Shown here piece by piece: positions 21,478 to 45,346 of a stretch of DNA of 64,000 bases. Both the position numbers and the translations under genes were made by a program. The notes under the pieces are model-generated. The model did not search any database and was not told where the DNA came from. It saw nothing but the letters and a program-made list of their open reading frames with translations. Source of the stretch: a bacterium (GTDB taxonomy: Bacteria; BMS3Abin14); assembly GCA_020350725.1 (NCBI GenBank), contig CP070719.1, positions 722,281 through 786,280 of the forward strand, given 5' to 3'. Numbering within the stretch: the first letter of the stretch is position 1; every line of letters starts with the position of its first letter.

Positions 21478-22003
21478 CGCCTCTCCCCCATCACCGCCTC
21501 TCGGTTCGAAAGGACCGGTTTATTATTTGTAATATAGCATCTTTTGGTGTGCCGGTACTACGAAGGCATCGGGTCTGCATGATGAGAGGCGACTATGCTT
21601 TCCCCGGGCGCTGGATGGTGTCCGATCCACCTCCCCCCTGACAGCCGATGAACAGGGGTCCGGCCCTCCCTTTAGGTATTTTATTTACAGGCGTCCACCA
21701 TCAATGTGGGGGTTGCGCACAGGTTAAATAGTTGTTAAATAGGCTCTGGGAATAGGAGCCCCGAACCGGACCGGAGGGGGAACAGAGAGTTGAACCGAGT
21801 GAAAGGCTCCTGCCCCGAATTTCGTTGTCTATCCGGCAAACCGCCCCGGGGGCGGGTCCTTGCCTTAGCAGACCACGGATCGAATCCCCTACCCATAGAA
21901 CACAAGGCGCCAGAGAGCGGGCACTTCAGGGCCGGATTCATCGTCCATGTCATCCCCAAGTTCCTGAGTTCGTTGTGATCGTGACGTGAGAGGAACCATC
22001 ATT
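21478..22003. other. Intergenic region upstream of ccmE
   Basis: About 525 bp. It contains a probable promoter at 21713-21741 and a GC hairpin at about 21836-21865 (GGCAA and TTGCC flanking complementary CCGCCCC and GGGCGGG). No ORF here looks like a protein. Confidence 0.5.
21713..21742 (+). promoter_or_regulatory. Candidate sigma-70 promoter for the ccm operon, with 11-bp direct repeat
   Basis: TTGCGC (21713-21718) and TAAATA (21736-21741) are 17 bp apart. The nonamer GTTAAATAG occurs at 21723 and again at 21734, an 11-bp period across the spacer and -10 element, which may be a regulator site. It is about 260 bp before ccmE. Confidence 0.5.
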
Positions 22004-22447
22004 ATGACCAAAGGGAAGGTAAATATTCGAACCATCGTCGCCGTCCTGGCCCTGCTGGGTGGAGTCGCCTATCTGATCGTGTCGAGTATCTCCGAAACCG
22101 GCGTGTATTACCGCACTGTCAGCGAGGTTCTCGCCAGCCCCACGCTGGACCGAGCCCTGAGGGTCAGCGGAAAGGTGGTGGAGGGGACGGTGAATGTCAA
22201 CCAGGAAAGGCTCTTTCTCGCCTTCGAGGTTTCCGACCTGGAAGACAGGACCAAGACACTCAAGGCCATTTACAGCGGTGTGGTCCCCGACGCCTTCAAG
22301 GAGGATGCCGAGGTCATCCTCGAGGGGAGCTACGATAGGGCATCCAACACCTTCAATGCCGTTACCCTGTTGGCCAAGTGTCCGTCCAAATACGTGGCGG
22401 ACGCTTCCCAGACAGAGGCCTCGGCGGAAAAAGAGCACGGGAGATAG
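22004..22447 (+). CDS. ccmE: Cytochrome c maturation haem chaperone CcmE, CxxxY type
   Basis: 147 residues from the ATG at 22004; a GTG at 21986 is the alternative. An N-terminal membrane anchor (VAVLALLGGVAYLIV) precedes an OB-fold domain with YYRTVSEVL, LRVSGKVVEGTV and AIYSGVVPDAFKE. The haem-linking motif is CPSKY (C126, Y130) where the Escherichia coli protein has HxxxY. The CxxxY form is known from Desulfovibrio-type and archaeal systems. It carries haem to CcmF at the periplasmic face of the inner membrane. ccmF starts 7 bp downstream, so they form an operon. Confidence 0.95.
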   Translation: MTKGKVNIRTIVAVLALLGGVAYLIVSSISETGVYYRTVSEVLASPTLDRALRVSGKVVEGTVNVNQERLFLAFEVSDLEDRTKTLKAIYSGVVPDAFKEDAEVILEGSYDRASNTFNAVTLLAKCPSKYVADASQTEASAEKEHGR

Positions 22448-22454
22448 GGAAACA

Positions 22455-24431
22455 ATGTCTCAATTCGGAAGCTACACCATCTACCTGGCCCTCGCTTTCT
22501 CTCTGGCGTCCATCGTAGCGCTTCTCCTGGGGGTTTCGAAAAACGACTTCAGGTACCTGTTGAGCGGCCGAAGATCCCTGGCCTTCACAGCCCTGTTTAC
22601 CACCCTGGCGGCCGCGGCCATGACCTACCTGTTCGCGGCGGACCGTTTTGACATCGAATACGTATACTCCTACTCCGACCGGGCTCTTCCCCTTTTCTAC
22701 AAGCTCACGGCCTTCTGGGCCGGGCAGAGGGGGTCGCTGTTGTTCTGGGCGTGGGTCCTGTCCCTGTTCGCCCTCGTGGTGGTCTACAACACCCGACAGG
22801 ACCTCGAGAACCGCACCACCCCATACATCTACCTCGTCCTGGGCGGAACCCTGAGTTTTTTCCTCTACCTCCTGGCCACCATATCAGATCCCTTCGCGGT
22901 CATTCCCGGGGGGGTGGTACCCCCGGACGGCAAGGGATTGAACCCCCTTCTCCAGAACCCGGGTATGATCTTCCACCCGCCGACCCTCTTTCTCGGCTAC
23001 GTGGGATTCACCGTTCCCTTCGCGTACGCGGTAGCCGCCATGGTGACGGGTAAAGTGGATGAGACCTGGTTGAGAAAGACCCGGATCTGGAATGTCCTGT
23101 CCTGGGTTTTTCTGAGCATCGGCATCATCCTCGGGGGACAGTGGGCCTACGTCGAGCTCGGCTGGGGAGGTTACTGGGCCTGGGATCCGGTGGAGAACGC
23201 ATCCTTTATACCCTGGCTGGTGGCCACCGCTTTTATCCACACCGCCATCATTCAGGAACGGCGCAACATCATGAGGGTGTGGAACATGGTGCTCATTGTC
23301 CTCACCTTTGTCCTGTGCATCTTCGGCACCTACCTGGTGCGCAGCGGCATCCTCCAGTCGGTCCACGACTTCGGGGCCACCGGTCTGGGAGGCTTCTTCC
23401 TCTTTTTCATGTTCTTCGTGATGCTGGTGGGCATCGTCCTCATCTCAGCCAGCTACCGGGACCTGAGGACCGACCACTCCCTGGAGTCCTTTCTGTCCCG
23501 GGAGAGCACCTTCCTGTTCAACAACGTGGTCCTGCTGGCCCTGGCCTTCTCCACCCTGTTCGGAACGATGTTTCCCCTCATCTCCGAGGCGGTGACCGGC
23601 AACAAGCTCACCGTGAGCCAGCCCTTTTTCAACCGGGTCAACACACCCCTGTTTCTGTCCCTGATCCTGATCACCGGCCTGTGCCCGCTCATCGGCTGGC
23701 GCAAGGCATCGACCGACAACCTGAAGAAGAACTTCCTGATGCCTCTCGCGGCTATGGGCTCCGGGACGGCAGTCCTGTTCGTTCTTGGGGTGAGGGGGGT
23801 TTACCCGCTGCTGGCTTTTGCCCTGTCCATCTTCGTGGCCGCCACCATCGGGCGGGAATTCTGGTCCGGGACCAGGGCGCGGGCACGCCTGACGGGCGAG
23901 GGGGCCCTGGTAGCCTTTCCCAGGCTCCTGTGGAACATGCGCCGCAGGTACGGAGGATTCGTGGCCCACCTGGGAATGGTCCTGATGGTCATCGGTATCA
24001 CGGGGTCGAACGCCTACAAGGTCGAGAATCAGGCCACGCTGCAGAAGGGCCAGAGCATGAGCGTGGGGGAGTACACCCTGCGCTACGACCGCCTGGGTAA
24101 GTACTCCGATCGTAACCGCGAGGTCTACGTCGCTACCCTGGCGGTCTTCAGGGAAGGCCAACCGGTGGGCGTCATCAGACCGGAGAAGAGATTCTACAGC
24201 AAGGCCGACCAGCCCACCACCGAGGTCAGCCTCAGGTCCACCCTCCTGGAGGACCTCTATGTGACCATGCCCACCATCGGCGACAGGACGGTTGTGACCG
24301 TGCGGGCAGCCGTCAATCCCCTTGTGATATGGGTCTGGATAGGCGCCTTCATCATGGTGGGTGGCGGCGTGATGGCAGTCATCCCGAGGTGGAAAAGAAA
24401 AGGAGAGATCCGTGAGATTCCCGAGAGCTAA
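22455..24431 (+). CDS. ccmF: Cytochrome c haem lyase subunit CcmF
   Basis: 658 residues, about 14-15 transmembrane segments. The haem-handling WWD region reads WGGYWAWDPVENASFIPWL. Conserved His-bearing loops include NPGMIFHPPTLFLGYVG and FGATGLGGFF after VHD. A C-terminal periplasmic domain with strands such as YTLRYDRLG precedes the last helix. It transfers haem from CcmE to apocytochromes. The start ATG at 22455 has AGGGAAAC upstream and lies 7 bp after ccmE; the stop overlaps ccmH by 20 bp. I see no ccmABCD in the window, so haem delivery genes must lie elsewhere. Confidence 0.96.
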   Translation: MSQFGSYTIYLALAFSLASIVALLLGVSKNDFRYLLSGRRSLAFTALFTTLAAAAMTYLFAADRFDIEYVYSYSDRALPLFYKLTAFWAGQRGSLLFWAWVLSLFALVVVYNTRQDLENRTTPYIYLVLGGTLSFFLYLLATISDPFAVIPGGVVPPDGKGLNPLLQNPGMIFHPPTLFLGYVGFTVPFAYAVAAMVTGKVDETWLRKTRIWNVLSWVFLSIGIILGGQWAYVELGWGGYWAWDPVENASFIPWLVATAFIHTAIIQERRNIMRVWNMVLIVLTFVLCIFGTYLVRSGILQSVHDFGATGLGGFFLFFMFFVMLVGIVLISASYRDLRTDHSLESFLSRESTFLFNNVVLLALAFSTLFGTMFPLISEAVTGNKLTVSQPFFNRVNTPLFLSLILITGLCPLIGWRKASTDNLKKNFLMPLAAMGSGTAVLFVLGVRGVYPLLAFALSIFVAATIGREFWSGTRARARLTGEGALVAFPRLLWNMRRRYGGFVAHLGMVLMVIGITGSNAYKVENQATLQKGQSMSVGEYTLRYDRLGKYSDRNREVYVATLAVFREGQPVGVIRPEKRFYSKADQPTTEVSLRSTLLEDLYVTMPTIGDRTVVTVRAAVNPLVIWVWIGAFIMVGGGVMAVIPRWKRKGEIREIPES

Positions 24432-24897
24432 CATCGTCTTGCTTTTCCTTGTCCTCGCCGCGCTGATCGTTCCGCCTGCGGCCATGGCCCTGACCAGCTC
24501 AGAGGTCGAGGGGGAACTCATGTGCGACTGCGGGTGTGGGGACGTTCTGGTCAACTGCACCTGCGACCGGTCAGAGGAGCTGAGGGCCATCATCAACGGG
24601 ATGATCCAGAGCGGGAAGACCAAGGAGGAGATCCTCCAGATCTTCGTGGACCAGTTCGGTGAGGTCATCCTTTCCGCTCCACCCCGAAGGGGGTTCAACC
24701 TGGTCGCCTACGGCGCCCCCGCCGCGGGCCTGCTCATAGGCACCGCGTTGGCCGTGGTTGTCGTCAGGCGGTGGTCGGCCGCCGGGCGCCGTGAGGAGGA
24801 CGAGGAGGCATCGCCTGACGAAGCGGTGTCCGAGTCCCTTCCTGAAGATGTTGAGAGAAAAATTGACGAGGAGCTCGGCCGGATCGAGGAGGACTGA
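24412..24897 (+). CDS. ccmH: CcmH/CycL-type thiol protein with five-cysteine motif
   Basis: 161 residues from a GTG with AAAGGAG upstream. A signal or anchor helix precedes LMCDCGCGDVLVNCTC (Cys 38, 40, 42, 49, 51), in place of the LRCxxC motif of classical CcmH. EELRAIINGMIQSGKTKEEI and a second transmembrane helix (about 100-118) follow, as in CcmH. A charged cytoplasmic tail ends the protein. It is expected to reduce apocytochrome cysteines before haem attachment. A diverged relative with almost the same Cys spacing lies at 42431-42991. It overlaps ccmF and is followed 3 bp later by the ccmI-like gene. Confidence 0.88.
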   Translation: MRFPRANIVLLFLVLAALIVPPAAMALTSSEVEGELMCDCGCGDVLVNCTCDRSEELRAIINGMIQSGKTKEEILQIFVDQFGEVILSAPPRRGFNLVAYGAPAAGLLIGTALAVVVVRRWSAAGRREEDEEASPDEAVSESLPEDVERKIDEELGRIEED

Positions 24898-24900
24898 TCC

Positions 24901-25446
24901 ATGATAACGGTTATCTCACTGGCCCTTTTTGCGGGGGCCATGTATTACGCCTTCTCACCCCTTACGGGGCAGCGCGTGGACTGGCTGGATTCCGAGGAGT
25001 GGATGGACGAGGAACGGAGGGGTCTCGAGACGGAAAAGAGGATCTTCCTCAAGTCCCTCAAGGATATCGAGTTCGAGCGGGCGTCGGGCAAGATAAACGA
25101 CGATGACTTCAATGACCTCAGGACCTACTACCGGAAAAAAGTGTCTGATCTCCTCGACGAGATCCAGGCCATGGGCGAGGAGGAGTTCGACGACGAGGAC
25201 GAAGAGGACGGATACGAAGGTGAGCACCGGGACCCAGATGACGAGGATGAGAACGATTTCGAGGGGGAAGAGGAATACGAGGAAGACGGGGGATACGACG
25301 ACGAGGAATACGAGGAGGACGACGAGGATTACCACTCGACCGAGGTCCCCCGGAACCGTCGCGAGAACACATTCCTGGGTTTCTTCTGGTTCGTCCTGGT
25401 CGTCATGGTCGGTCTCATCGGGATGGCCGTGGTGAGGGGGGTGTAG
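24901..25446 (+). CDS. CcmI-like membrane protein with acidic linker
   Basis: 181 residues. An N-terminal hydrophobic helix (MITVISLALFAGAMYYAF) is followed by a helical stretch (IFLKSLKDIEFERASGKI, then DFNDLRTYYRKK) like the cytoplasmic loop of CcmI/CycH. A run of about 60 residues is almost all Asp, Glu, Gly and Tyr, and a C-terminal helix FFWFVLVVMVGLIGMAV ends the protein. CcmI chaperones apocytochromes; the usual TPR domain is absent, so this is a reduced form at best. It is last in the ccm operon, 3 bp after ccmH. Confidence 0.8.
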   Translation: MITVISLALFAGAMYYAFSPLTGQRVDWLDSEEWMDEERRGLETEKRIFLKSLKDIEFERASGKINDDDFNDLRTYYRKKVSDLLDEIQAMGEEEFDDEDEEDGYEGEHRDPDDEDENDFEGEEEYEEDGGYDDEEYEEDDEDYHSTEVPRNRRENTFLGFFWFVLVVMVGLIGMAVVRGV

Positions 25447-32426: not shown

Positions 32427-33041
32427 TTAAGGTTCGGCTTCGATCCATTTGACAATATCCGATTTCAGGTTCTCCTCAACACGGATCTTCCAGCCTGCCT
32501 TCTTCAGGTTCTCAGGGGTCCTCCGGTTGATGTTGGCACCCGTCAGCCTGACTGTCAGAGGATTGAGGATATCGAAGAGAAACCCCTTTAAGGACGATTG
32601 CGGCCGAACATGTTCGAGAAGGATGAGGCGGCCTCCAGCCCGGCACACCCTCCTGACCTCCGCCAGCCCTCTTACCGGGTCCGGCACCGAGCAGAAGACG
32701 AATGTCGCGAAAATGGTATCGAAGGTGTTGTCGGGGAAGGCCAATTGCTGAACATCCATCTCCGCCAGGTTGACGCTGGCGCCGTCATCCCTGGCTCGCC
32801 TGGCTGCCCGTTCAAGCATCCGGGGGCTGAGGTCCACGCCGGTAACGGTAATCCCAGGTGGATAGCAGGAAAAATTCTTGCCTGTCCCGACCCCGACTTC
32901 AAGAATCTCTTCGCCCTCGACCACCGTGGTCAACCTCCTCCTCCACGGGGCGAAAAGGAGCCGCTCCATGGGCATTTCCATCAGGTCGTAGAGCCAAGCT
33001 ATTCGATTGTAACGGTTTCGGGTCTGTCTCGTTGTGGGCAT
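32427..33041 (-). CDS. Class I SAM-dependent methyltransferase, UbiE-like
   Basis: 204 residues. The SAM loop is ILEVGVGTGKNFSCYP, strand 2 is VTGVDLSPRMLERA, motif II is FDTIFATFVFCSVPDP, and motif III is GGRLILLEHVRP. These match the Methyltransf_11/UbiE-like group, and the C-terminal ANINRRTPENLKKAGWKI also occurs in those. It lies 64 bp after copA on the same strand and may be cotranscribed with the copper ATPase. Homologues next to metal genes are common, but the substrate is unknown. The start lacks a strong ribosome binding site. Confidence 0.88.
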   Translation of the reverse strand: MPTTRQTRNRYNRIAWLYDLMEMPMERLLFAPWRRRLTTVVEGEEILEVGVGTGKNFSCYPPGITVTGVDLSPRMLERAARRARDDGASVNLAEMDVQQLAFPDNTFDTIFATFVFCSVPDPVRGLAEVRRVCRAGGRLILLEHVRPQSSLKGFLFDILNPLTVRLTGANINRRTPENLKKAGWKIRVEENLKSDIVKWIEAEP

Positions 33042-33105: not shown

Positions 33106-36066
33106 TCAGATCTTTCGCCTGTACCGGCGCATCAGAAGCGAATTGGTCACCACGGAGACGGAGCTGAAGGCCATGGCCGCGCCGGCGACTATGGGGCTGA
33201 GCAGGAAACCGGTAAAGGGGTACAGGATGCCTGCGGCGACGGGGATACCGAGGGAGTTGTAGATGAATGCCCAGAACAGGTTCTGTTTGATCTTCCGCAT
33301 TGAGAAGCTGGACAGGTCCATTGCCATGACGACGTCCCGGATGTCGTCTTTTATGAGGACGATGTCACCGGACTCGATGGCCACGTCGGTACCGCTCCCG
33401 ATAGCGATGCCGATATCAGCCTGGGTCAGGGCCGGCGCGTCGTTGATCCCGTCCCCCACCATGGCCACCCGGTGACCATCACCCTGGAGCCTCTTCACCT
33501 CCGCGGACTTGTCCTGCGGAAGCACCTCGCTTAGAACCTTCCTGATACCGACCTGGGCGGCGATGGCTTCCCCGGTGCGCCGGTTGTCCCCGGTGATCAT
33601 GACCACTTCCTTGCCCATACCCTGAAGCGCCTGAACGGCAGCTTTTGAGTGCTCCTTCAGGGTGTCGGCAACGGCCAGGATGCCGGCGATCTCGTCGTCC
33701 GCCCCGACGATCATGGCCGTTTTGCCCTGTGCCTCCAGTTCCACCATGGCCCTGTCAAGGTCGTTCAGGTCAAGATCCAAGCCGGTAAAGTGGGCCCTGT
33801 TACCGATCGCGATCTTCCTGCCGTCAACCGTGCCCTCGACACCCTTGCCGGTCACAGAGTGGAAGTCCTTCACCGGGAGGATCTCGAGGCCTCTCTTCTC
33901 AGCCCCGGCCACTACGGCCTCCCCGAGGGGGTGCTCGGAGCTCTTCTCCACCGAGGCGGCCAGTTGAAGCACCAGGTCCCGGTCCCGGTTACCGAAGGGC
34001 ACCACGTCCGTGAGCTCGGGCTCCCCCTTGGTCAGGGTCCCGGTCTTGTCGAAAACCACCGTGTCGATCTTATGGGCAATCTGGAGCGCCTCGGCGCTCT
34101 TGATGAGCACACCGTTTTTCGCCCCCAGCCCGGTACCCACCATGACGGCCGTGGGGGTCGCCAGGCCAAGGGCGCAGGGACAGGCGATGATGAGGACAGC
34201 GATGAAAACGGTCAGGGCGAAGATGAAACTCTGGCCCGCCAGCATCCAGATGCCAAAGGCGAGGGCGGCGATGACGACCACCGCCGGCACGAAATAGGCC
34301 GAGATAAGATCCGCCAGGGCCTGGATAGGGGCTTTCGAGCCCTGAGCCTCCTCGACGAGCTTGATGATCTGCGCTAAAGCCGTGTCCTTACCCACCTTGG
34401 TGGCCCTGAATCGGAAGGAGCCGGTCCTGTTGATCGTCGCCCCCACGACCTCTGATCCCACGGTCTTCTCGACCGGGATGCTCTCGCCGGTGAGCATGGA
34501 TTCGTCCACCGCCGAGTATCCGTCGATGACCACCCCGTCCACCGGGATCTTCTGGCCCGGCCTGACGAGCACCTCATCGCCCGTGTGCACCTCCTCGACG
34601 GGGACCTCCATCTCCTTGCCGTTCCGGACGACCAGGGCCGTTTTCGCCTGGAGGCCCATCAGGGACTTGATAGCCTCGGAGGTCTTTCCCTTGGCGATGG
34701 CCTCGAGGTATTTCCCCAGGAGGATGAAAACGATGAGAAGGCCGGCGACCTCGAAATACAGGTTATCCTTTGAATAGCCTGCCTTGCCCATCCAGATGGC
34801 AGCCAGGACCGCCGTGCTGTAGGCCCACGCCGCCCCGGTGCCGAGGGCCACGAGGGTGTCCATGGTGGCCATCCTGGTCCTGGCAACGGCGAGGATGCCC
34901 CGCGTGTAGAACTGGTAGTTGGCCAGCAGGATCGGCGTCGCGAGCAGTAATTGGACAAGGGCCTCCCACCTGTCGGGGATATGGGGAACAGGCAGCCCCA
35001 CCATCGGACCCATGGTCAGCAGCACCAGCGGTATTCCCAGGAGGGCCGAGAAAACAAATTTAAGCCTGAGGGTCTTTATCTCCCTCTCTCTGGCCTCCTT
35101 TTCCCTGTCCAGAACCTCTTCCGTCTCCTCGACCGGGGTGTACCCGGCGTCGCGGATAGCCCGGAGAATCTCCTCCCTGCTGGTGATGGAGGGATCGAAG
35201 CTGATCCTGGCCCTTTCGTTGATGAACAGCTCTTTTGACGTAATTCCAGACAGGCGGTTCAGGGCGCCGTCCACCGTCCCCAGACAGTGGGGATTGTCCA
35301 TCCCCACCACCTTCAGCTCGAGCCGTCCCCCCGGCTCCTGCCGGGCGTGGGGTGTGTATCCCGCATCCTCAATGGCCTTTTCCAGATCGGCGTATGCGGT
35401 GTGTGACGGATCGAACCGGACGGATGCCGATTCGGCGGCGAAATTCACGTGCGCCTCCGAGACACCGTCCAGTCTCATCAGAGCTTTCTCGATGGACGCG
35501 GCACAGGAGGCGCAGTTCATCCCGGTGATGCCGATGGTGACTTTTTCCTCCGGGACCTCACGGAGGTGGGGCGTATAGCCTGCGTCCCTGACTGCCTGTT
35601 TAAGCTCCTCGACCCCGACCTTCTCCGGGTCGTACTCCACGGTCCCTGATTCGGTGGCGATGTTGACCGCGGCACTGGTTACCCCGTCGACTTTTTTCAG
35701 GGCCTTCTCGGTGTTGGCGGCGCAGGAGGCACAGTGCATGCCGGTGATCCCCATGGTGAGTTTCTTCGACACCCTTCCAACCTCCGACTCAACCGATACC
35801 GGGATCTCACACGCCTCCCCGTTAATCAGGGTTTCAGGTGTTCGGGTTTGTGTGGTCAGGTGAATATCTTCGCTTTCCGACCCTATTGGATTTTGCCCCT
35901 CGACATTGCTCGGGGTCCTGAGCTTGTCGAAGGGGGTTTTGGATCTTGGATTCAGAAACTCCTCCCTGCACCCCTCACTGCAGAAATAGTAGGTCTCGCC
36001 GTCCTTCACGCCCGACAGAGCCGCATTCTCATCCACCTCCATTTTGCACACCGGATCAATGGCCAT
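33106..36066 (-). CDS. copA: Copper-exporting P1B-type ATPase with N-terminal YHS domain
   Basis: 986 residues from the ATG at 36066. An N-terminal YHS domain ([16 protein letters not shown]) is followed by an unusual linker and three HMA domains. Two of these have CxxC (GMHCASC, GMNCASC); the third has lost it (GMDNPHCLG). P1B-1 features follow: the membrane site [11 protein letters not shown], phosphorylation DKTGTLTKG, the HP motif [11 protein letters not shown] and GDGINDAP. It expels Cu(I) from the cytoplasm. The linker between YHS and the first HMA contains the translated REP-like phrase FDKLRT and 7-bp array sequence, suggesting a YHS gene fused onto copA through intergenic DNA. It is downstream of csoR on the same strand. 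Confidence 0.96.
35820..35960. repeat. REP-like element and 7-bp repeat units inside the copA linker
   Basis: On the minus strand the codons for [17 protein letters not shown] come from AATCCAA, GATCCAA units, then CTTCGACAAGCTCAGG, then more short units including AACCCGA. The same unit types are intergenic elsewhere (17138-17172, 41808-41841, 25660-25692). Confidence 0.65.
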
Positions 36067-36123: not shown

Positions 36124-36318
36124 TTATCCGCAACATCCTCCCCCTCTTTTCCTGAAACCGGGGTCAGGGCTGCTTTTGCCCTCAGAATCGCGGTTACCGC
36201 TTATCATGTTATCTTCCTCAGCATGTTGCCCCCCGTGGCAGCTGCCCCCGCGGCGGGGCCGAAATATCATAAATGCCACTAGAAGGAGCACCGCCCACCC
36301 TATAACCTTGGATATCAT
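36124..36318 (-). CDS. Small membrane protein with Cys/His-rich tail
   Basis: 64 residues. One transmembrane helix (KVIGWAVLLLVAFMIF) and a polar tail with CHGGQH and a terminal GGGCCG. The Cys and His pairs suggest metal binding. The ATG at 36318 has GAGGAGA at a spacing of about 8; the frame continues upstream over the csoR stop. It sits between csoR and copA on the same strand and is probably cotranscribed. No named family fits well. Confidence 0.7.
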   Translation of the reverse strand: MISKVIGWAVLLLVAFMIFRPRRGGSCHGGQHAEEDNMISGNRDSEGKSSPDPGFRKRGGGCCG

Positions 36319-36344
36319 TATGGTTGTCTCCTCGATCGCGGGGA

Positions 36345-36605
36345 TCACCTGAACCTGGAAAGAAGATCCAGCACCTCATCGATCTTCGCTTTCCTGTCCA
36401 CGGAGTCGTCCCCGGACAGGGAATCCTTGACACAGCTCTCCAGGTGACCTTTGAAGATATTTTCCTGCACCTTCGCCAGGGCGTTCGAGGCTGATCGAAT
36501 CTGGGTCAGGATATCCACACAGTAACGATCTTCCTCGATCATTCTCCTGATCCCCCTTATCTGGCCCTCGATCCTGTTGAGCCTGACAATCTGAGCTTCG
36601 TGCAT
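36345..36605 (-). CDS. csoR: CsoR-family copper-sensing repressor
   Basis: 86 residues, all-helical DUF156/CsoR fold. The Cu(I) ligands C29, H54 and C58 have the spacing of Mycobacterium CsoR (C36, H61, C65). It lacks the residues of the RcnR or FrmR types, so copper is the likely inducer. The ATG has GAGGAGGG at a spacing of about 6. Its own promoter (36651-36680) contains an inverted repeat, and a second similar site lies in a divergent promoter (36729-36757). It therefore probably represses both csoR-copA and the plus-strand DUF2933 gene set. Confidence 0.94.
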   Translation of the reverse strand: MHEAQIVRLNRIEGQIRGIRRMIEEDRYCVDILTQIRSASNALAKVQENIFKGHLESCVKDSLSGDDSVDRKAKIDEVLDLLSRFR

Positions 36606-36650
36606 AATTACCCTCCTCTTAATTGGCTATCATCCTAATTATTTAGACTA

Positions 36651-36680
36651 TTTATACCATACCCACCCATGGTATGTCAA
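36651..36680 (-). promoter_or_regulatory. csoR promoter with overlapping inverted-repeat operator
   Basis: On the minus strand TTGACA (36680-36675) and TATAAA (36656-36651) are 18 bp apart. The spacer carries ATACCAT and ATGGTAT (36654-36660, 36669-36675) around a G/C core, as in CsoR operators. Confidence 0.78.
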
Positions 36681-36728
36681 ATAATATAATTATGGTTGAT
36701 TAAAAACAACCTGAAAAAGCAAAAAAAC

Positions 36729-36757
36729 TTGCATACCCCTCCAGGGTATGGTATTGA
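36729..36757 (+). promoter_or_regulatory. Divergent promoter with CsoR-type operator
   Basis: TTGCAT (36729-36734) and TATTGA (36752-36757) are 17 bp apart. Between them lies CATACCC-CTCCA-GGGTATG (36732-36750), the classic CsoR inverted repeat. It points at the DUF2933 gene at 36832. Confidence 0.8.
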
Positions 36758-36831
36758 AATGATGGAGGGAGAGGAGAAGCCGGTTGGGAGCCAAGCAAGA
36801 ATGAGGCCGACTTCTCTGGAGACCGTCGGGC

Positions 36832-37047
36832 ATGGACAGTAACGGTGAGAGGAAAATCTCAACCCGTTCGAAAAAAAGAGATCTCCTTTTTGCGGCCATG
36901 GGTCTTGGTGTCCTGGCCCCTCCCATTCTGACCTACCTCTGGACCAGCCACAAGGACCACATTCTGGGCCTGTTACCATGGGCCCTCGTTCTGCTCTGCC
37001 CCATTATGCATCTCTTTCTCCACGGAAAACATGGCAAGGGACACTGA
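36832..37047 (+). CDS. DUF2933-family small membrane protein
   Basis: 71 residues. Two hydrophobic segments (LLFAAMGLGVLAPPILTYL and ILGLLPWALVLLCPIMHLF) end with the His-rich HGKHGKGH. The phrase LLCPIMHLFLHG is the hallmark of DUF2933 proteins, which recur in copper and other metal resistance clusters. The terminal His could bind metal at the membrane surface. It is under the operator-bearing promoter at 36729-36757, so copper-inducible expression is likely. Seven base pairs separate it from the next gene. Confidence 0.88.
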   Translation: MDSNGERKISTRSKKRDLLFAAMGLGVLAPPILTYLWTSHKDHILGLLPWALVLLCPIMHLFLHGKHGKGH

Positions 37048-37053
37048 TTTTCC

Positions 37054-37341
37054 ATGACCCCCAATCGGCTATTCAATAGGGCACCTGTACTACCTGTCAT
37101 CCTCGTCTTGGCGTTAGTCGCTGCTGTTTCCTTGGTGACATTCCATGGCATTGGCGCCCTTGGGGGAAAAACCACCTGCCACCAAAGCGGCATCTTCTCC
37201 TGCCTGTATTCCATCTGCGTTGTCATCCTCACCGTTCCCATCCTTATAGTAGTTACCTTTTTTTACACTCTGGTTCTTGACTCAAAATTATCTTTCAGCA
37301 CCAATTCGGTATCCCCCCCGCACCGCCCTCCCCGCGCCTAA
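37054..37341 (+). CDS. Small membrane protein, unknown function
   Basis: 95 residues, two transmembrane segments (VLPVILVLALVAAVSLVTF and ICVVILTVPILIVVTFFYTLVL). The loop between them holds two Cys (TTCHQSGIFSC). It follows the DUF2933 gene by 6 bp, consistent with an operon, though its ribosome binding site is weak. The C-terminus is Pro/Arg-rich and may run into non-coding sequence. No family recognised. Confidence 0.6.
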   Translation: MTPNRLFNRAPVLPVILVLALVAAVSLVTFHGIGALGGKTTCHQSGIFSCLYSICVVILTVPILIVVTFFYTLVLDSKLSFSTNSVSPPHRPPRA

Positions 37342-37436
37342 CGCCCCAAGGTCTACAGCTACACGTGCGCACCGGCAGTTGTCCACACAACCGTCGGGGT
37401 CGGATCGTCCCCCTTTTTCCGCATAGGAGATGAGTA

Positions 37437-37640
37437 ATGGAACCAAAGGTAGACGCGGACCGGTGGAGGGAGATCGCACAGGTGCTGTCTGTTATCCGGG
37501 CAAATTACAGCCACCGGGTGCGTTTTCTTCTTCAATCCAGCTGCAGGATGGCAAACGGAGCTCGAAACGCAGAGACCCCTGGTGGGCTCCTTGGTGAACC
37601 AGGATTTTCAATCCATTTCAAAGAAAGGTCTTCAAGATGA
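37437..37640 (+). CDS. Small protein of unknown function
   Basis: 67 residues. The ATG has AGGAGATGAG directly upstream. The first 28 residues look helical and protein-like (DADRWREIAQVLSVIRANYSH); the rest is basic and of low complexity. Its stop overlaps the next start by 4 bp (ATGA), which argues for real translation. No family recognised; it may be a truncated gene kept as a translational leader. Confidence 0.5.
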   Translation: MEPKVDADRWREIAQVLSVIRANYSHRVRFLLQSSCRMANGARNAETPGGLLGEPGFSIHFKERSSR

Positions 37641-37852
37641 CAAAGCAGAGCTCGAGAAAAATGATCCTGCAGGGAACGTGTTCACAATGTGAAAAAAATT
37701 TTCGGGACCGGCAGACCCGTTTCGTTATTGGATATTTCCCCGCCGACCAGTTCTGTTCCTTAAAATGTATGGAATTGTTCCTCGAGAAGGACGATGGCAG
37801 GACACGAGCCGTTTCACTGTCTTCCATCTTCAGCCAATTTAACGGCTCTTAA
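37637..37852 (+). CDS. TRASH-like treble-clef metal-binding small protein
   Basis: 71 residues. Four Cys are arranged as CSQC (15-18) and CSLKC (40-44), with a short beta hairpin between, like TRASH/MYM-type metal-binding knuckles found in copper chaperones and regulators. The overlap of 4 bp with the preceding ORF indicates coupling. Its position in the CsoR-linked island suggests a role in copper or zinc binding, which is inference. There is no other domain. Confidence 0.7.
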   Translation: MTKQSSRKMILQGTCSQCEKNFRDRQTRFVIGYFPADQFCSLKCMELFLEKDDGRTRAVSLSSIFSQFNGS

Positions 37853-38247
37853 AAAAACCAACGGGATTTCAATTTTAATACTCAATGGTTGAGAACCGGA
37901 ATTATTAACGGATACTTCGCCTCCGGAACTCACTCCTTCAACACAGGAAAGGTAGGTTAGATAACTGGGCTTTGAAGTTTATGCGACTTTTCCGTTCCCT
38001 GGGTTTAGGGTCAGAACTGATATTTTAACTGGGTAATTTGGGAACAGTACTCTATCGATCCACTGGGAGTTTTTTACGCATCTACAACCGGGGCTGATTT
38101 TCACATAAGCAAAAAAATCCATTAATATCAAATACTTGATCTTCTTTTTCGATCAAACGTATCTTTGGCACGGTAGGTGCTTTGAAGTAGACAACAAAAC
38201 TTCCGCCGGCCAAGCGGCCGGCGCAGAGATCAAAGGAGGTCTGTACC
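37853..38247. other. AT-rich intergenic region with a probable sigma-54 promoter
   Basis: About 395 bp of lower GC than the neighbours and no protein-like ORF. It contains the inverted repeat TTGATC/GATCAA at 38140-38156, the -24/-12 element at 38166-38181 and a GC hairpin (GCCGGCC, GGCCGGC) at about 38206-38223 before the next ribosome binding site. Confidence 0.6.
38166..38181 (+). promoter_or_regulatory. Probable sigma-54 (-24/-12) promoter
   Basis: TGGCACGGTAGGTGCT keeps the invariant GG and GC exactly 12 bp apart and matches TGGCACG-N4-TTGCT with one mismatch. It is 67 bp before the start of the His/Gly-rich protein gene. An upstream activator would be needed, and the dyad at 38140-38156 may be its site. 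Confidence 0.65.
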
Positions 38248-38670
38248 ATGAGTAAAAGAGGAACTCTGATCACGGCAGTGAGTCTCACGATCGTCCTGGC
38301 CGGCTACGGCCTCGTCCAGGCCCACGGGGGATGGAGCGACCGCGATTACGCCCGCGGTTGGGGCCACATGGGTGGCTATGGCGGCCACATGATGGATTAC
38401 GGTCACATGGGCTATGGGAGCAGAAACTATGACTACGAACCCTGCTGGACCGACTCGAGTGAGGCCAAAAGGGCGGATATCAACAAGGAAACCGCCGAGG
38501 AGATGATCACCCGTTACTTGAGCCGGACCAATCCCAGGTTGGAGGTCGGCAAGGTCACCGGAACCGATGACGGGTTTGAGGTCCAGGTGGTCACGAAAAA
38601 GGGCCAGGCAATCGTTGACAAATTCCTGGTTGAGAAGGACACCGGCAGAGTCTACCGGCTCTACGAATAA
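38248..38670 (+). CDS. Periplasmic His/Gly/Met-rich protein with PepSY-like C-terminus
   Basis: 140 residues. The signal peptide (ITAVSLTIVLAGYGLVQA) is followed by a segment (27-66) dominated by Gly, His, Met and Tyr (GHMGGYGGHMMDYGHMGYG), likely to bind soft metals. The C-terminal 65 residues (ETAEEMITRYL, LEVGKVTGTDDGFEVQVV, VYRLYE) look like a PepSY-type domain. The ATG has AAAGGAGG at a spacing of 8. It is first of the set 38248-41831, behind the sigma-54-like promoter. Copper or silver buffering in the periplasm is inferred. Confidence 0.82.
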   Translation: MSKRGTLITAVSLTIVLAGYGLVQAHGGWSDRDYARGWGHMGGYGGHMMDYGHMGYGSRNYDYEPCWTDSSEAKRADINKETAEEMITRYLSRTNPRLEVGKVTGTDDGFEVQVVTKKGQAIVDKFLVEKDTGRVYRLYE

Positions 38671-38677
38671 CCATGGT

Positions 38678-38710
38678 GAACGGGAAGGGAATGTGCTTCC
38701 CTTCCCGTTC
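38678..38710 (+). terminator. Strong hairpin after the His/Gly-rich gene
   Basis: A perfect 14-bp stem (GAACGGGAAGGGAA with TTCCCTTCCCGTTC) around TGTGC begins 7 bp after the stop. No clear T-run follows, so it may be a partial terminator or an mRNA-stabilising structure. Confidence 0.65.
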
Positions 38711-38756
38711 TTGCGCTTGGCAGATCATAACCGGTGAAGACAAGGGGAAATTGGAG

Positions 38757-39317
38757 ATGAGGACGGACAGTCCAGTGATCAGATCCGTGCTGTGGGGGTT
38801 TACCGCCGGCGGCACCCTGGCAGCCCTTTACTTCATCGTCCTGTCCCTTTCCAACTCCCTCCAGCACGCCCTTGAGGAACTGCGGGCCCTTTGGTTCTGG
38901 CTCCTTCCCCTGATCACAGGTTTCGGGGTCCAGGCAGGTCTGTATTTCTTTATCAGGGGAACGATAAAGCAAAGAGCGGAAAGGTCTGCCACCGCCTCGG
39001 TGGTAGCTTCAGGCGGCACCTCCACAGCGGCCATGGTGGCCTGCTGCATGCACCACGTGACAGACATCCTGCCCATTTTCGGGACGTCAGCGGCAGCTCT
39101 GTTTCTGGCGCGATACCAGACCGTTTTTCTGGCTTTGGGCGTGGCGTCCAACGTGGTGGGAATTATCATGATGCTGCGGATCATTCAGCAAAAAGGGCTT
39201 TACGGAGAAAACAATCGGATCCTCGTCCAGATCATGAGGCTTGATATGGGAAAGGTTTTTTTCGTTGCTGTCCTGGCCGGAACGGCATTCATCGGATCGA
39301 TCGTTTCCTTGGCATGA
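38757..39317 (+). CDS. Integral membrane protein with CCMHH motif
   Basis: 186 residues, about five transmembrane segments. The middle helix region holds MVACCMHHVTDILPIFGTSAA, where adjacent Cys and His pairs sit in a membrane segment and could be a metal site or path. VFFVAVLAGTAFIGSIV ends it. The ATG at 38757 has AGGGGA at a spacing of 9. It lies inside a periplasmic metal-related set. Similar proteins with the CC-HH pattern occur near copper genes, but I know no characterised member. Confidence 0.72.
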   Translation: MRTDSPVIRSVLWGFTAGGTLAALYFIVLSLSNSLQHALEELRALWFWLLPLITGFGVQAGLYFFIRGTIKQRAERSATASVVASGGTSTAAMVACCMHHVTDILPIFGTSAAALFLARYQTVFLALGVASNVVGIIMMLRIIQQKGLYGENNRILVQIMRLDMGKVFFVAVLAGTAFIGSIVSLA

Positions 39318-39371
39318 GGCAAAGCGGATTTTTATACCTTTCAGGTCCCGGTCGATTCAAAGGAGAATATT

Positions 39372-39890
39372 GTGAGGACTGTATATTTCTATCTGATCGC
39401 ATTTGTAGGAATCGCAGGCATCCTTGGCGGCATTCCCGCCTTCGCCGGAATGGGCGGAGGCGGGGGTCCAGGTGGAGGGGCCAGCGGAGGAATGGGCGGA
39501 GATTCCGGAATGGAGACCAGCCCCATGCCCCGGGGTACCGGTCAGGGGATGAGAGGTCCGGTAGACATCGACTCCATGCCCAGCATATCCACTGGCGGCA
39601 TGAACAGCGGCAACGCCACCATCGAGATGAAACCCTACAGGTTCAGCGATGGCAGACTGGAGTTGAAGTACTACGCGAATACACACACCGTGAGCCTGGG
39701 AAAATACGATCTCATGGAACTGACCACCCTGGAAGTCGACGGCAATATCTACAGACCGTTAAGCATCGCCCGGATGAGGGGACACCATGCCGGGGGCAGG
39801 ATCGTCTTCGAGGTGCCCGAGATGCCCAGGCAGTTTCGGGTGATTATACGCGGCGTCCCCAGCGTGGAGGAACGGATCTACGAATGGTAG
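39372..39890 (+). CDS. Secreted Gly/Met-rich protein of unknown function
   Basis: 172 residues from a GTG with AGGAGA at a spacing of about 6. The signal peptide (YFYLIAFVGIAGILGGIPAFA) precedes a Gly/Met-rich part (24-75) and a C-terminal beta domain (about 80-172) with METTTLEVDG-like strands and a closing FRVIIRGVPSVEERIYEW. The Met and Gly content recalls periplasmic copper proteins, but no motif is decisive. It lies between the CCMHH membrane protein and the DUF1573 lipoprotein on the same strand. Confidence 0.72.
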   Translation: MRTVYFYLIAFVGIAGILGGIPAFAGMGGGGGPGGGASGGMGGDSGMETSPMPRGTGQGMRGPVDIDSMPSISTGGMNSGNATIEMKPYRFSDGRLELKYYANTHTVSLGKYDLMELTTLEVDGNIYRPLSIARMRGHHAGGRIVFEVPEMPRQFRVIIRGVPSVEERIYEW

Positions 39891-39956
39891 GAGATCCGGA
39901 AGAATCATTATAGGGATGTTCCGCTTTAAAAGCGGACAGTAACAGAAAGGTCGGTC

Positions 39957-40967
39957 ATGGTTAAAATGTCCACTGGTCTGATTCTTTCTCTCCTGGCTGT
40001 CCTCCTTGCTGTCGTACTGGCGGCATGCACCAGAGGGAGCAGCCCGGAAACCAACAATCCGCCATCCGCCGAGCAGGCAAAAGCGAAACCCCAAGGCAGG
40101 ATCGGGACTGACGACGCCCTCGAGGTCGAACTGGGGTCGGTCAACATCAAGGGGGGCCATATAAAGCGGACCTTCACCCTGAGAAATGTAGGGGAGGGAG
40201 CCCTCACCCTCCGGGGAGCGTTCACGTCCTGTGCGTGCACCGTCGCATCGATAATACTTTCAGACCCTCCCGTTTCCGAAAAATTCGGAATGAAACTGCC
40301 GAGGAACTGGAGCCAGGTGGTCAAACCCGGCCAAAGCTTCGAAATCGAGGTTGATTTTGATCCCCTGTACCACGGCGAAACCGACACCGGTCCCTTCACC
40401 AGAACCGTTTACCTCATCACGGATGCGCCCTCGGACGACCACCTTTCGACCAATCTTCCGATCATCCAAAACGGGACCGTGACAACGATCCTTCTGAAAG
40501 GAACGACTCTTTCGGAGGGTGAATTCAGGACTGCGAGGGCCGACTCCCTTTACCGGGAAATCAGCGGCGATTTCAGATATACGAAGACGGAATACGACCT
40601 GGGTAAGGTCAAACAGAGCCAGGGCATCGTCAAACAAGAGTTCCCCTTCCTCTATGCCGGTGAGATGCCGATTACTGTTAAGGGCACTCCCACCAGCTGC
40701 GGTTGCACAAGGGCCTATGTCACCAACAAGGACCTGAGGCCGGGAGATGAGGGGGTCCTCGTGGTGGAGTTCGACCCTAATTTTCACGAGGAGCCGGAGG
40801 GTAAATTTTTCAAGACGATCTCCCTTCTCACCGATCCGCCTCTGCGTGAACGGTCCGAGGTGAGGATCTGGGCCGAGATCGACCTCGATCTGGGACCGAA
40901 TGCCTACAAGTATGTGGGCCACAAGGACGAAGACGAGGAGCATGATGACGACGGGGAGACCAATTGA
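39957..40967 (+). CDS. Lipoprotein with two DUF1573 domains
   Basis: 336 residues. The lipobox is VVLAACTRG after a hydrophobic signal. Two Ig-like DUF1573 domains follow, each with a two-Cys loop: FTSCACTVAS in the first and PTSCGCTRAY in the second. Typical FTLRNVGEGALTLRG strands are present. It ends with an acidic His-containing tail (HKDEDEEHDDD). It is a periplasmic lipoprotein, and the paired Cys loops may bind a metal or undergo thiol chemistry. lgt, the enzyme needed to lipidate it, begins 3 bp downstream, so they are cotranscribed. Confidence 0.9.
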   Translation: MVKMSTGLILSLLAVLLAVVLAACTRGSSPETNNPPSAEQAKAKPQGRIGTDDALEVELGSVNIKGGHIKRTFTLRNVGEGALTLRGAFTSCACTVASIILSDPPVSEKFGMKLPRNWSQVVKPGQSFEIEVDFDPLYHGETDTGPFTRTVYLITDAPSDDHLSTNLPIIQNGTVTTILLKGTTLSEGEFRTARADSLYREISGDFRYTKTEYDLGKVKQSQGIVKQEFPFLYAGEMPITVKGTPTSCGCTRAYVTNKDLRPGDEGVLVVEFDPNFHEEPEGKFFKTISLLTDPPLRERSEVRIWAEIDLDLGPNAYKYVGHKDEDEEHDDDGETN

Positions 40968-40970
40968 CAG

Positions 40971-41831
40971 ATGTACCCTGAACTGCTTCACCTCGGACCG
41001 TTCGTCATCCACACCTACGGTTTCTTCTTCGCTCTGGCAATACTGGCCGGAATAACATTGGCCGAACATCTTCACCGAAGGGATGGCGGGCAGCCGGGGA
41101 CCTTCGCTGATCTGGGCCTTATAGTTATCATCGGAGTGCTGATCGGCGCCAGGACCCTCTTTATTATCGTCAACTGGAAGTATTTCCTGGACAATCCAGC
41201 CGAGATCCCCATGATCTGGCGGGGTGGACTGGTGTTCTACGGAGGGTTGATCGGTGGAGCATTGGCATTCATAGCCGCCGTTCGGCTCAAGGGATTGCAG
41301 CTCTGGCGATCCGTCGACACATTGGCGCCCGCCCTGGCTCTTGGCCACGCTATCGGCCGTTTGGGATGTTTCTTCGCCGGCTCGTGTTACGGCAAGCCAA
41401 CGGATCTGCCCTGGGCCGTCACCTACACCGATCCCAGGTCACTGGCCGGTGACATGCTCGACGTTCCGGTCCACCCGACCCAGCTTTACTCCTCAGCAGC
41501 TCTCCTGGTCCTGACCGTTGTACTTATGAAAGTAAGATCCCGAAAGGTCTTCGACGGCCAGGTCGCCGCTCTTTACGGCCTTCTCTACGGGACATGGCGA
41601 TTCTTTATCGAGTTCCTGCGGGGAGACCCGCGGGGAGCTGTGACCGTATTTGACCTGACCCTTTCCACCAGCCAGATCGTCAGTCTGTTCCTGGTGCCTT
41701 TGTCGGTGGCCGGCTTTCTGGTATTGAGGAGAAAGGGTTTGGGTATTCCGGGGAAAAAGGTCCCCATTGGACAGGAATCGGCAGTCAACCTTCCCTCAGT
41801 CCAAAGTCCAAAACCCAAAGCCCAAAATTGA
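40971..41831 (+). CDS. lgt: Prolipoprotein diacylglyceryl transferase
   Basis: 286 residues with seven transmembrane segments. HTYGFFFALAILAG and the Lgt signature GRLGCFFAGSCYGKPTDLPW are present, as is RGGLVFYGGLIG with the catalytic-region residues. The enzyme moves diacylglycerol from phosphatidylglycerol to the lipobox Cys of prolipoproteins. The C-terminal residues SVQSPKPKAQN are encoded by a 7-bp array (41808-41841), so the natural end of the protein was probably earlier. It is followed by a bidirectional terminator. Confidence 0.96.
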   Translation: MYPELLHLGPFVIHTYGFFFALAILAGITLAEHLHRRDGGQPGTFADLGLIVIIGVLIGARTLFIIVNWKYFLDNPAEIPMIWRGGLVFYGGLIGGALAFIAAVRLKGLQLWRSVDTLAPALALGHAIGRLGCFFAGSCYGKPTDLPWAVTYTDPRSLAGDMLDVPVHPTQLYSSAALLVLTVVLMKVRSRKVFDGQVAALYGLLYGTWRFFIEFLRGDPRGAVTVFDLTLSTSQIVSLFLVPLSVAGFLVLRRKGLGIPGKKVPIGQESAVNLPSVQSPKPKAQN

Positions 41832-41841
41832 AAATTCAAGA
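41808..41841. repeat. 7-bp array forming the end of lgt
   Basis: AGTCCAA, AACCCAA, AGCCCAA, AATTGAA units follow one another and cross the lgt stop codon. The units match those upstream of imuB and in the copA linker. Confidence 0.8.
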
Positions 41842-41856
41842 CCAGCGATAAAAAAA

Positions 41857-41884
41857 CGGTCCCGGGTGAATCCGGGACCGCCTT
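41857..41884. terminator. Bidirectional terminator between lgt and the small Cys-Cys gene
   Basis: A perfect 9-bp stem (CGGTCCCGG with CCGGGACCG) with loop GTGAAT, followed by CCTTTAA on the plus strand and TTTTTT on the minus strand. Confidence 0.92.
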
Positions 41885-41915
41885 TAACGTTGATTTAGGT
41901 ATTCCTCGAAGTCTC

Positions 41916-42089
41916 TCAGTGCTGCGAGGAATCTTTCTCCTGATCCAGTTTAGGGACCACGGGGGGATTGCAGCAGTCCACCGGTTTCTTCGGGTTGCTT
42001 GCCACCGAATCCTCCTTCAACTCCTCGAAGATCCTCTTGACACTGGAGTTTATCCTTTTCCAGAAGCTGTTCTCTTTTCTCGCTTCCAT
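41916..42089 (-). CDS. 57-residue protein with Cys-Cys motif
   Basis: A short gene with an ATG at 42089 and GGGAGAAGG upstream. The N-terminal half is basic and helical (NSFWKRINSSVKRIFEELKE); the second half holds KKPVDCCNPPVVPKLD. Adjacent Cys with prolines suggest a metal or disulfide function. It is closed by the strong minus-strand terminator at 41857-41884, which supports that it is transcribed. No family is known to me. Confidence 0.65.
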   Translation of the reverse strand: MEARKENSFWKRINSSVKRIFEELKEDSVASNPKKPVDCCNPPVVPKLDQEKDSSQH

Positions 42090-42150
42090 GGTTCCTTCTC
42101 CCTTTCTACAATCTCAGTGTATCCTGACTGTCCCCGCCGAGGCAAATTCT

Positions 42151-42438
42151 CTAGGGCCTCTGGGGCCTGAAAAGGAGGTTGGTTTTGTTTTTTCCTTTCC
42201 CGGAGGTTCTGCCTAATACCGTTTCGGGCCGCATGGATGGAAAGGGCATGACGAAGGTTGACAGGACAAGGGCACACAGGAGGATCAGGCAGTCGATCAG
42301 GCCACCCGGTATATCCCCCCTGTGGTGAACCAGAAAGGCGATCCCGGCCAGTACCGCCATCATGGTCGGGAGAAAGGTCATCCCTGTTAAGCGTCCCCTG
42401 TCCACAGTAATCTGCCTCCTGCCATGCGCCTTAATCAT
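42151..42438 (-). CDS. Small membrane protein coupled to the CcmH-like gene
   Basis: 95 residues, two transmembrane segments (LPTMMAVLAGIAFLV and LIDCLILLCALVLSTFVM) and a basic tail. Its ATG overlaps the stop of the upstream CcmH-like gene by 8 bp, so translation is probably coupled. There is no Shine-Dalgarno of its own. Function unknown; a joint role with the CcmH-like protein is inferred from the overlap. Confidence 0.65.
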   Translation of the reverse strand: MIKAHGRRQITVDRGRLTGMTFLPTMMAVLAGIAFLVHHRGDIPGGLIDCLILLCALVLSTFVMPFPSMRPETVLGRTSGKGKNKTNLLFRPQRP

Positions 42439-42991
42439 GGAGATAATCGTCCAGCAGATCGTCATCATCCCCATCGCGGAACCCGGAATCCCTTCCCTTT
42501 TTCCTCTCCGGGCCTGACGACCCCTTCCTCGCCCGGGTTTCCGGGGGTCGTCCTTTCCCGGAAGACCTGCCCCGTCCCGAAGGCTGGGGCGCGGACCGTG
42601 CGTACCTGAACATCATCATCCCCGCCAGTGACAGTCCGAAAACGACGAGGACGATTCCCACCGTCTGCTTGCTCAGTCCGCCCCTGCCTCCGATGGATCT
42701 GGCCGGAGGCGCGGCGGCGGCGTTGGCCACCAGCACGGACGCTCCAAATCGATCGATGAACTCGCTGATGATCTGATCCTCCGACATGCCCCTGTTGACC
42801 ATGTCCTCGAGATCCGCTCGGTAGCCGTCCGACTGAGGACATTCGCACTCGGACAGTGTCTCGTCACAGGTACCGCAGGCGCACATGAAGTTCAGGGCGA
42901 CCTTGAAGGGGGAGAGGGCAAAGGTCAGGCTGGGCAGCAGAAGCACCAGGACGAAAACAACGGGAATTGCAGAAAGGTGAAGCCTTCCCAT
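42431..42991 (-). CDS. Second, divergent CcmH-like thiol protein
   Basis: 186 residues from the ATG at 42991 (AAGGAG at a spacing of 8). A signal helix precedes NFMCACGTCDETLSECEC with Cys 37, 39, 42, 49 and 51, nearly the same spacing as in the ccm-operon protein at 24412. A helical stretch (YRADLEDMVNRGMSEDQII) like the CcmH domain, a membrane helix (VGIVLVVFGLSLAGMMMF) and a basic/acidic tail follow. It is not next to other ccm genes but to lgt and DUF1573. It may serve a special cytochrome or thiol partner. Similarity is from motif spacing, not alignment. Confidence 0.72.
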   Translation of the reverse strand: MGRLHLSAIPVVFVLVLLLPSLTFALSPFKVALNFMCACGTCDETLSECECPQSDGYRADLEDMVNRGMSEDQIISEFIDRFGASVLVANAAAAPPARSIGGRGGLSKQTVGIVLVVFGLSLAGMMMFRYARSAPQPSGRGRSSGKGRPPETRARKGSSGPERKKGRDSGFRDGDDDDLLDDYLHD

Positions 42992-43242: not shown

Positions 43243-43329
43243 AGGATTCAGTAGTCAACATTCAGAATTCAGGAGAACCTTTCTTTTGCTCCTTCAACTG
43301 AATACTGATTACAGAATACTGACTACTCT
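43243..43329. repeat. Inverted pair of 7-bp arrays between the lexA promoter and start
   Basis: Left array: GATTCAG, TAGTCAA, CATTCAG, AATTCAG. The right array has CTGAATA, CTGATTA type units, the reverse complement. The pair lies in the lexA leader and would fold into a stem in the mRNA. Confidence 0.85.
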
Positions 43330-43339
43330 GGAGGTCCTT

Positions 43340-43942: not shown

Positions 43943-43945
43943 GCG

Positions 43946-44073
43946 AATCCAAAGTCAAAAATCCAAAGTCCAAAATAAACCTCAACCAGATGCTTTCATT
44001 GACACAGTGTGCCTATTCCGATTCCGGGAGCTTCATAAATTTTGGATCTTGGACCTTGGATTTTGGATTTATT
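43946..44073. repeat. Inverted pair of 7-bp arrays between lexA and imuB
   Basis: Left array (43946-43980): AATCCAA, AGTCAAA, AATCCAA. The right array (44040-44073): TTTTGGA, TCTTGGA, CCTTGGA, the reverse complement type. The spacer is about 60 bp. Confidence 0.85.
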
Positions 44074-44078
44074 AAACA

Positions 44079-45281: not shown

Positions 45282-45342
45282 AAAAGGAACCGCATGCTCT
45301 TTTTCTTCTTTCCACCTTCCACTTTTCACTTTCCACTTGATA
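45261..45342. repeat. Inverted pair of 7-bp arrays between imuB and dnaE2
   Basis: The left array covers the end of imuB (AAGGGGA, AAGGTTA, AAGTGAA). The right array (45308-45342) has TTTCCAC, CTTCCAC, TTTTCAC and ends at the dnaE2 start. Confidence 0.8.
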
Positions 45343-45346
45343 TCCC

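Follow-up and report, generated by a model that had tools for sequence, protein, structure and literature searches.

MerT is a small membrane protein with vicinal cysteines that is sometimes fused to an HMA domain (MerT-MerP). The Salmonella CHASRI island, for its part, is reportedly a copper cluster that contains a DUF2933 gene. In Alteromonas, DUF2933 is found beside copA and a cupredoxin gene (PMC8478169), and the operators bound by the copper-sensing repressor CsoR take the form TAC-X9-GTA (PMC3902906). Members of the DUF1573 family occur as selenoproteins with a UGC motif (PMC9312934, PMC13188914). Further, cytochrome c maturation is known to be hit by an excess of periplasmic copper (PMC8456105). 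Here, we analyze an island of small genes around csoR and copA in a window of 64,000 nucleotides, drawn from a bacterial genome of 2.78 Mb on a single contig (Table 1). With little better than even confidence, we read this island as an envelope system for copper handling that would shield cytochrome c maturation, in which two proteins that we term cc and gly may form a copper relay.

Composition of the island

Every gene that the first-pass annotation had listed, from csoR-copA to the second CcmH-like protein, was found in the sequence. Two starts have been corrected, that of cc (38757 is more likely) and that of the CcmH-like gene (42991 is more likely), and two genes that had gone unmentioned have been added: smC, which separates csoR from copA, and a methyltransferase gene after copA. 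Signal peptides, the lipobox and the ligand pattern of CsoR were read from the sequence. No Rfam element was detected between 36000 and 43400.

Table 1. Features of the island and of related genes in the window (positions are those of the window)
Feature	Position	Strand	Basis
ccmE-ccmF-ccmH-ccmI-like operon	21986..25446	+	this window
SAM methyltransferase (UbiE-like), beside copA	32427..33041	-	Pfam
copA, Cu+ P-type ATPase, YHS and three HMA domains	33106..36066	-	Pfam
smC, small protein, one TM, Cys/His-rich tail ending GGGCCG	36124..36348	-	sequence
csoR, copper-sensing repressor	36345..36605	-	PF02583, 3.2e-27
CsoR operator, csoR promoter	36656..36678		PWM 27.8
CsoR operator towards the DUF2933 gene	36730..36752		PWM 22.7; TAC-X9-GTA match
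DUF2933 small membrane protein	36832..37047	+	PF11666, 3.4e-14
o95, 95-aa membrane protein	37054..37341	+	relatives in 4 other family genomes
Possible 67-aa ORF, overlaps next start (ATGA)	37437..37640	+	position
TRASH-like 71-aa protein, CxxC...FCxxxC	37637..37852	+	motif by reading; relatives in 5 other family genomes
His/Met-rich secreted protein, PepSY-like C-terminal half	38248..38670	+	reading
cc, predicted five-helix membrane protein, invariant CCxHH	38757..39317	+	alignment, model
gly, predicted secreted, Gly/Met-rich N-part and beta-sandwich domain	39372..39890	+	alignment, model
Lipoprotein, two DUF1573 domains, CxC loops TSCACT and TSCGCT	39957..40967	+	PF07610, 5.5e-26
lgt paralogue	40971..41831	+	Pfam, 7e-65
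smCC, 57-aa protein, conserved DCCNPP	41916..42089	-	relatives in G002, G003, G004, G009
Second CcmH-like protein, CACGTC... TM	42431..42991	-	PF03918, 3.8e-6

The likeness of the His/Met-rich protein to PepSY comes from reading only; the protein has no Pfam match to PF03413. Assignment of the DUF1573 lipoprotein to the OS_HP2 selenoprotein family was rejected, as it reaches 49.1 bits against the NF041425 cut-off of 100. The island lgt cannot be the sole housekeeping copy, given that the genome contains four Lgt-family matches including this one (the others are at G000:C1 1808058, 2740030 and 117029). The CcmH-like protein passes PF03918 marginally (26.6 vs. 25 bits), and it is indeed a second copy, the first CcmH being encoded at 24412-24897. 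Between this second copy and smCC lies an ORF of 107 amino acids with a transmembrane stretch (42151-42474); the distance separating these two genes is far shorter in two sister genomes (G003 and G009) than in the window. Adjoining the island, positions 43286-48382 hold a LexA gene (Pfam), behind which come genes that, by reading, resemble ImuB-type and DnaE2-type polymerases; the run is likely a mutagenesis cassette.

CsoR operators and the divergent units

CsoR, the only copy in the genome, scores 95.2 bits (PF02583; cut-off 22.8) and has, by reading, the Cys-His-Cys copper pattern. E1-E2 ATPase, hydrolase and HMA domains are present in CopA according to Pfam, and a CPC motif was found by reading; the ORF reaches 36114, with a probable ATG at 36066. 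Within copA, at 35917-35933, the palindromic repeat CCTGAGCNNGTCGAAGG is inserted in frame in the linker that joins the YHS domain to the first HMA domain. This repeat is dispersed, with 31 copies in the genome, and the copA of G004 has a comparable insert (by reading). No Pfam family matched smC above its cut-off; in G009 and G010, too, csoR and copA are separated by an smC-like gene (62-73 amino acids).

An operator matrix was built from eight csoR promoters of the window's family, which have in common a pseudopalindrome like GACATACCATAGGGGGGTATGGT. The site in the csoR promoter of the window is itself among these eight, and the site facing the DUF2933 gene was left out of the building. The third-best score in the window is 9.7, leaving only two strong sites. 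The second of these has the exact published TAC-X9-GTA form in a pattern search; the first has it by reading. A site scoring 22.4 also precedes o95-TRASH-csoR2 at a separate locus in G003. The claim that CsoR operators point both ways, between csoR-copA and the DUF2933 gene, is upheld. The same cannot be said of the view that the whole island is one system under CsoR: the operators occur only at the divergent units, at 36.1-37.9 kb. Because the matrix scan found no CsoR site for the operon at 38248-41831, either in the window or in G003, G009, G010 and G011, CsoR control is most likely limited to the two divergent units.

In the rightward unit, the DUF2933 protein is secure (PF11666, 53.1 bits vs. 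a cut-off of 21). Our sample of the window's family comprises 12 genomes, some of them incomplete; o95 is present in five of the 12, each time with the TRASH-like gene. The latter was recognized by its cysteine pattern, with no family match above the cut-off (Pfam E of only 0.029-0.07 for the TRASH/YHS zinc ribbon). The 67-aa ORF has positional counterparts in G005 and G011, with a sequence similarity (E 0.28) that is not significant.

The cc and gly families and their neighbours

None of 29 cc members passes a Pfam or NCBIfam family, and solved structures contain no sequence match. The alignment reveals two invariant elements, GFGxQ and CCxHH. Members have four to five predicted helices; the AlphaFold model (pLDDT 87) has five long ones, with CCMHH late in helix 3, and its structural matches in a fold search are noise. 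A cation diffusion facilitator was considered and rejected (PF01545, 17.1 vs. 26.6 bits; fold search E 1.2). As with cc, no gly sequence (of 39) passes a Pfam or NCBIfam family, nor did solved structures yield a sequence match. The invariant residues in its alignment are TH, L, HH, G and W, with the T nearly so and the HH lying within GHH. The gly model is a confident beta-sandwich (pLDDT 92) without a significant structural match, the best being unrelated Ig-like domains (fold E 0.017). With neither a profile match nor a significant fold match, a known copper-chaperone fold was rejected for gly.

Loop charges predict that cc has its N-terminus inside and its C-terminus outside. This topology suits two kinds of fusion: a copper-chaperone-like HMA domain is joined to the N-terminus, predicted to be cytosolic, at five loci (L012, L045, L072, L079 and L092), and gly is joined to the predicted outer C-terminus of five-helix forms at four (L015, L016, L018 and L121). 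No single cc carries both fusions among the loci seen. At L011 (6776-7417, in G009), the front half of cc is fused to gly by an apparent deletion that takes out CCMHH; this joining could be genuine, or else an artefact of assembly.

The HMA fusions recall those of MerT and MerP, and one might suppose that cc acts like MerT in import of, or resistance to, another soft metal such as mercury or silver. A marginal NCBIfam match to MerT (E 0.009) could be adduced for this idea, but it concerns one of the 29 members, Pfam gives none, and MerT identity was rejected for cc. The copper ligand pattern of CsoR, the predicted inside location of the HMA domain and the lack of mer genes in the loci read all speak against it, making it the least probable of the explanations that we weighed.

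The neighbourhood recurs in other genera of the family. G003 and G009 have the order ccmE-ccmF-ccmH-ccmI-PepSY-cc-gly-DUF1573-lgt, with smCC and CcmH2 convergent. PepSY-cc-gly-DUF1573 is retained in G010 and also in G011, where a single 9.7-kb contig further bears a second gly, o95, TRASH, a CcdA-like gene and a two-component pair. The neighbours of csoR-copA are lgt, gly and smCC in G002, CcmH2-smCC in G004, the PepSY-like gene in G010, and o95-TRASH in G009. Owing to these arrangements, nearly every island gene has, in another genus, a link with either csoR-copA or the cc operon. The distribution of cc is patchy (5/12 family genomes). Three sister genomes (L010, L114 and L115) encode a sensor kinase together with an NtrC-like regulator, next to either gly2/TRASH or the PepSY-like gene; this pair is not in the window.

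Beyond the family, a scan of GTDB genomes with the cc alignment returned 94 encoding stretches, of which 80 were kept; a single-sequence scan of GTDB contigs returned nothing, and a plasmid collection held no match. The hosts are mostly Chloroflexota, with Spirochaetes, Armatimonadetes and Omnitrophica also represented, as well as bins labelled ANME-2, Thaumarchaeota, Micrarchaeota and Nanohaloarchaea; some of the archaeal and small-genome bins may be misbinned. Within 6 kb of 88 cc loci, gly was found 82 times, DUF2933-like genes 41 times, DUF1573 25 times and CcdA-like genes 18 times. Removal of near-duplicates left 31 loci, at 27 of which gly adjoins or is fused with cc; DUF2933-like and DUF1573 genes occur at eight each and CcdA-like genes at seven. 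Here "DUF2933-like" denotes a family defined by our own profile, since in a Pfam spot-check of seven members only four passed (one fell below the cut-off and two had no match). CcmH is present at six of the 31; CopA-type genes and HMA domains (alone or fused) stand at seven each, counts that are low partly because the contigs are short. A second survey, of 337 genomes from the family and across the domain, found cc in eight, gly in 17 and DUF2933 in seven; all eight cc genomes have gly. Outside the family, gly accompanies cc in three of three genomes, against 9/325 overall (hypergeometric 1.5e-5).

One unrelated genome, G314, mirrors the order in the window: copA, methyltransferase, DUF2933-like, a cc::gly fusion, an HMA protein and a second copA (L121). 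At L121:12357-12812, ahead of the HMA protein and copA, is a gene for a small DCCN protein with an smCC-like motif. Just downstream of cc-gly at L079:5289-6299, and at nine other loci, is a 336-aa protein with no Pfam family.

The first-pass annotation had staked its proposal in part on co-occurrence of these genes in other genomes. The neighbourhood does recur, in the family and, as regards its core of cc, gly, DUF2933 and DUF1573, across phyla, and the proposal survives on this point. It is conceivable that two unrelated clusters became neighbours by chance, and the cc operon and csoR-copA are on separate contigs in G003 and G009. However, several genera show such links, each time with other partners, and DUF2933, cc and gly occur together across phyla. 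This explanation, already disfavoured, is very unlikely, and the family and G314 neighbourhoods led us to abandon the notion of two unrelated modules, csoR-copA and the cc operon.

Proposed function and relation to known systems

As regards function, the first-pass idea of a periplasmic metal-handling or cofactor-assembly system has fared well in one respect, in that the neighbourhood joins copper genes, His/Cys-rich proteins and cytochrome c maturation genes; a single system under CsoR is not supported. The invariant Cys and His residues, the HMA fusions, the CopA, CsoR and DUF2933 neighbours, and the placement of DUF2933 beside copA in Alteromonas (PMC8478169) point to a role in copper. We propose that CsoR would repress both divergent units, csoR-smC-copA and DUF2933-o95-(67 aa)-TRASH, and that binding of Cu(I) to CsoR would free them, a response presumed from the CsoR family. 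The second part of the island, made up of the PepSY-like, cc, gly, DUF1573 and lgt genes with smCC and CcmH2 on the opposite strand, would act beyond the inner membrane on copper and thiols, and would keep copper off cytochrome c maturation. Here, cc could be the membrane conduit. A cytosolic HMA donor, either CopA-type or a separate domain, would hand Cu(I) to the helix-3 site, CCxHH, from where it would go on to the TH/GHH site of gly. The PepSY-like and DUF1573 proteins might then buffer the copper, or maintain both the metal and nearby thiols in reduced form. It is possible, if doubtful, that cc-gly constitutes a kind of transmembrane copper relay, so far undescribed, that bacteria and archaea possess apart from P-type ATPases, RND pumps and MerT. 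Copper binding, transport and its direction, like the link to cytochrome c maturation, are matters that we infer, and the topology of cc is predicted. Export is favoured over import on account of the company of CopA only.

A reason for the joining of copper handling with cytochrome assembly is suggested by the Ccm and CcdA neighbours, the ccm-linked operon and the finding that copper harms cytochrome c maturation (PMC8456105). The same neighbours also underlie the main rival to our reading, namely that the cc-gly-DUF1573 operon serves cytochrome c maturation, as a thiol-redox module or an accessory one. The CCxHH of cc could be a redox-active site instead of a metal relay, or be haem-linked, and the copper genes would be nearby since both act on exported thiols. 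The position of the cc operon after ccmE-F-H-I in G003 and G009 fits this proposal, as do CcmF/CcmH near cc in Chloroflexota and adjoining it in an ANME-2 bin, the CcdA-like and CcmH genes at the non-redundant loci, and TlpA-like genes nearby (by reading). Further, the UGC motif of DUF1573 selenoproteins implies a redox-active cysteine (PMC9312934, PMC13188914). Yet Ccm genes are absent within 6 kb of most cc loci, and the HMA fusions and the DUF2933, CopA, CsoR and multicopper oxidase neighbours favour copper; we consider a purely cytochrome-related role unlikely.

Another possibility is that cc-gly loads copper into an exported cuproenzyme, e.g., a multicopper oxidase. Such a gene lies within 6 kb of cc at 23 of the 88 loci, nearly all of them in Anaerolineae, but at just one of the 31 non-redundant ones. 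The complete genome studied here has no COX1, so that copper supply to a haem-copper oxidase was rejected as unlikely, and its one multicopper oxidase match is about 1.5 Mb from the island; delivery to those enzymes is therefore unlikely in this organism. G003 and G009 have neither gene. We regard this proposal as quite improbable, and retain copper handling that protects cytochrome c maturation as the preferred reading. If it is true, it provides two new metal-linked protein families with invariant residues, a context for three families of unknown function (DUF2933, DUF1573 and the o95/TRASH-like proteins), and a genetic connection from the control of copper to the maturation of cytochrome c.

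CsoR, CopA, DUF2933, Lgt and CcmH are of known kinds. With CsoR-CopA efflux operons the island shares the CsoR copper ligands, G-tract TAC-X9-GTA operators and the HMA domains of CopA; it differs in the presence of smC, which parts csoR from copA, and in the DUF2933-o95-TRASH unit that diverges from them under a second operator. The copper clusters typified by Alteromonas (PMC8478169) likewise have DUF2933 beside copA, but the island adds cc, gly, PepSY-like, DUF1573 and CcmH genes, and no cupredoxin gene was seen in the window's cluster. Like the DUF1573 proteins, including the OS_HP2 relatives, the island lipoprotein has an Ig-like fold and a CxC loop; unlike them, it unites two domains in one lipoprotein and falls below the OS_HP2 cut-off. 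System I cytochrome c maturation (CcmE, CcmF, CcmH, CcmI) is represented in the island by the CcmH-like protein, and in sister genomes the ccm operon ends with the cc operon; the Ccm components do not, however, include cc, gly or the PepSY-like protein. As small membrane proteins with vicinal cysteines and an occasional HMA fusion, cc and MerT/MerP are alike; cc nonetheless stands outside the MerT sequence family, with five predicted helices, CCxHH, an HMA domain predicted to be inside and gly as an outer partner. As far as Pfam, NCBIfam, solved structures and open-access papers extend, the conserved cc-gly pair, its two-ended fusions and its recurrent linkage to copper and cytochrome genes are undescribed.
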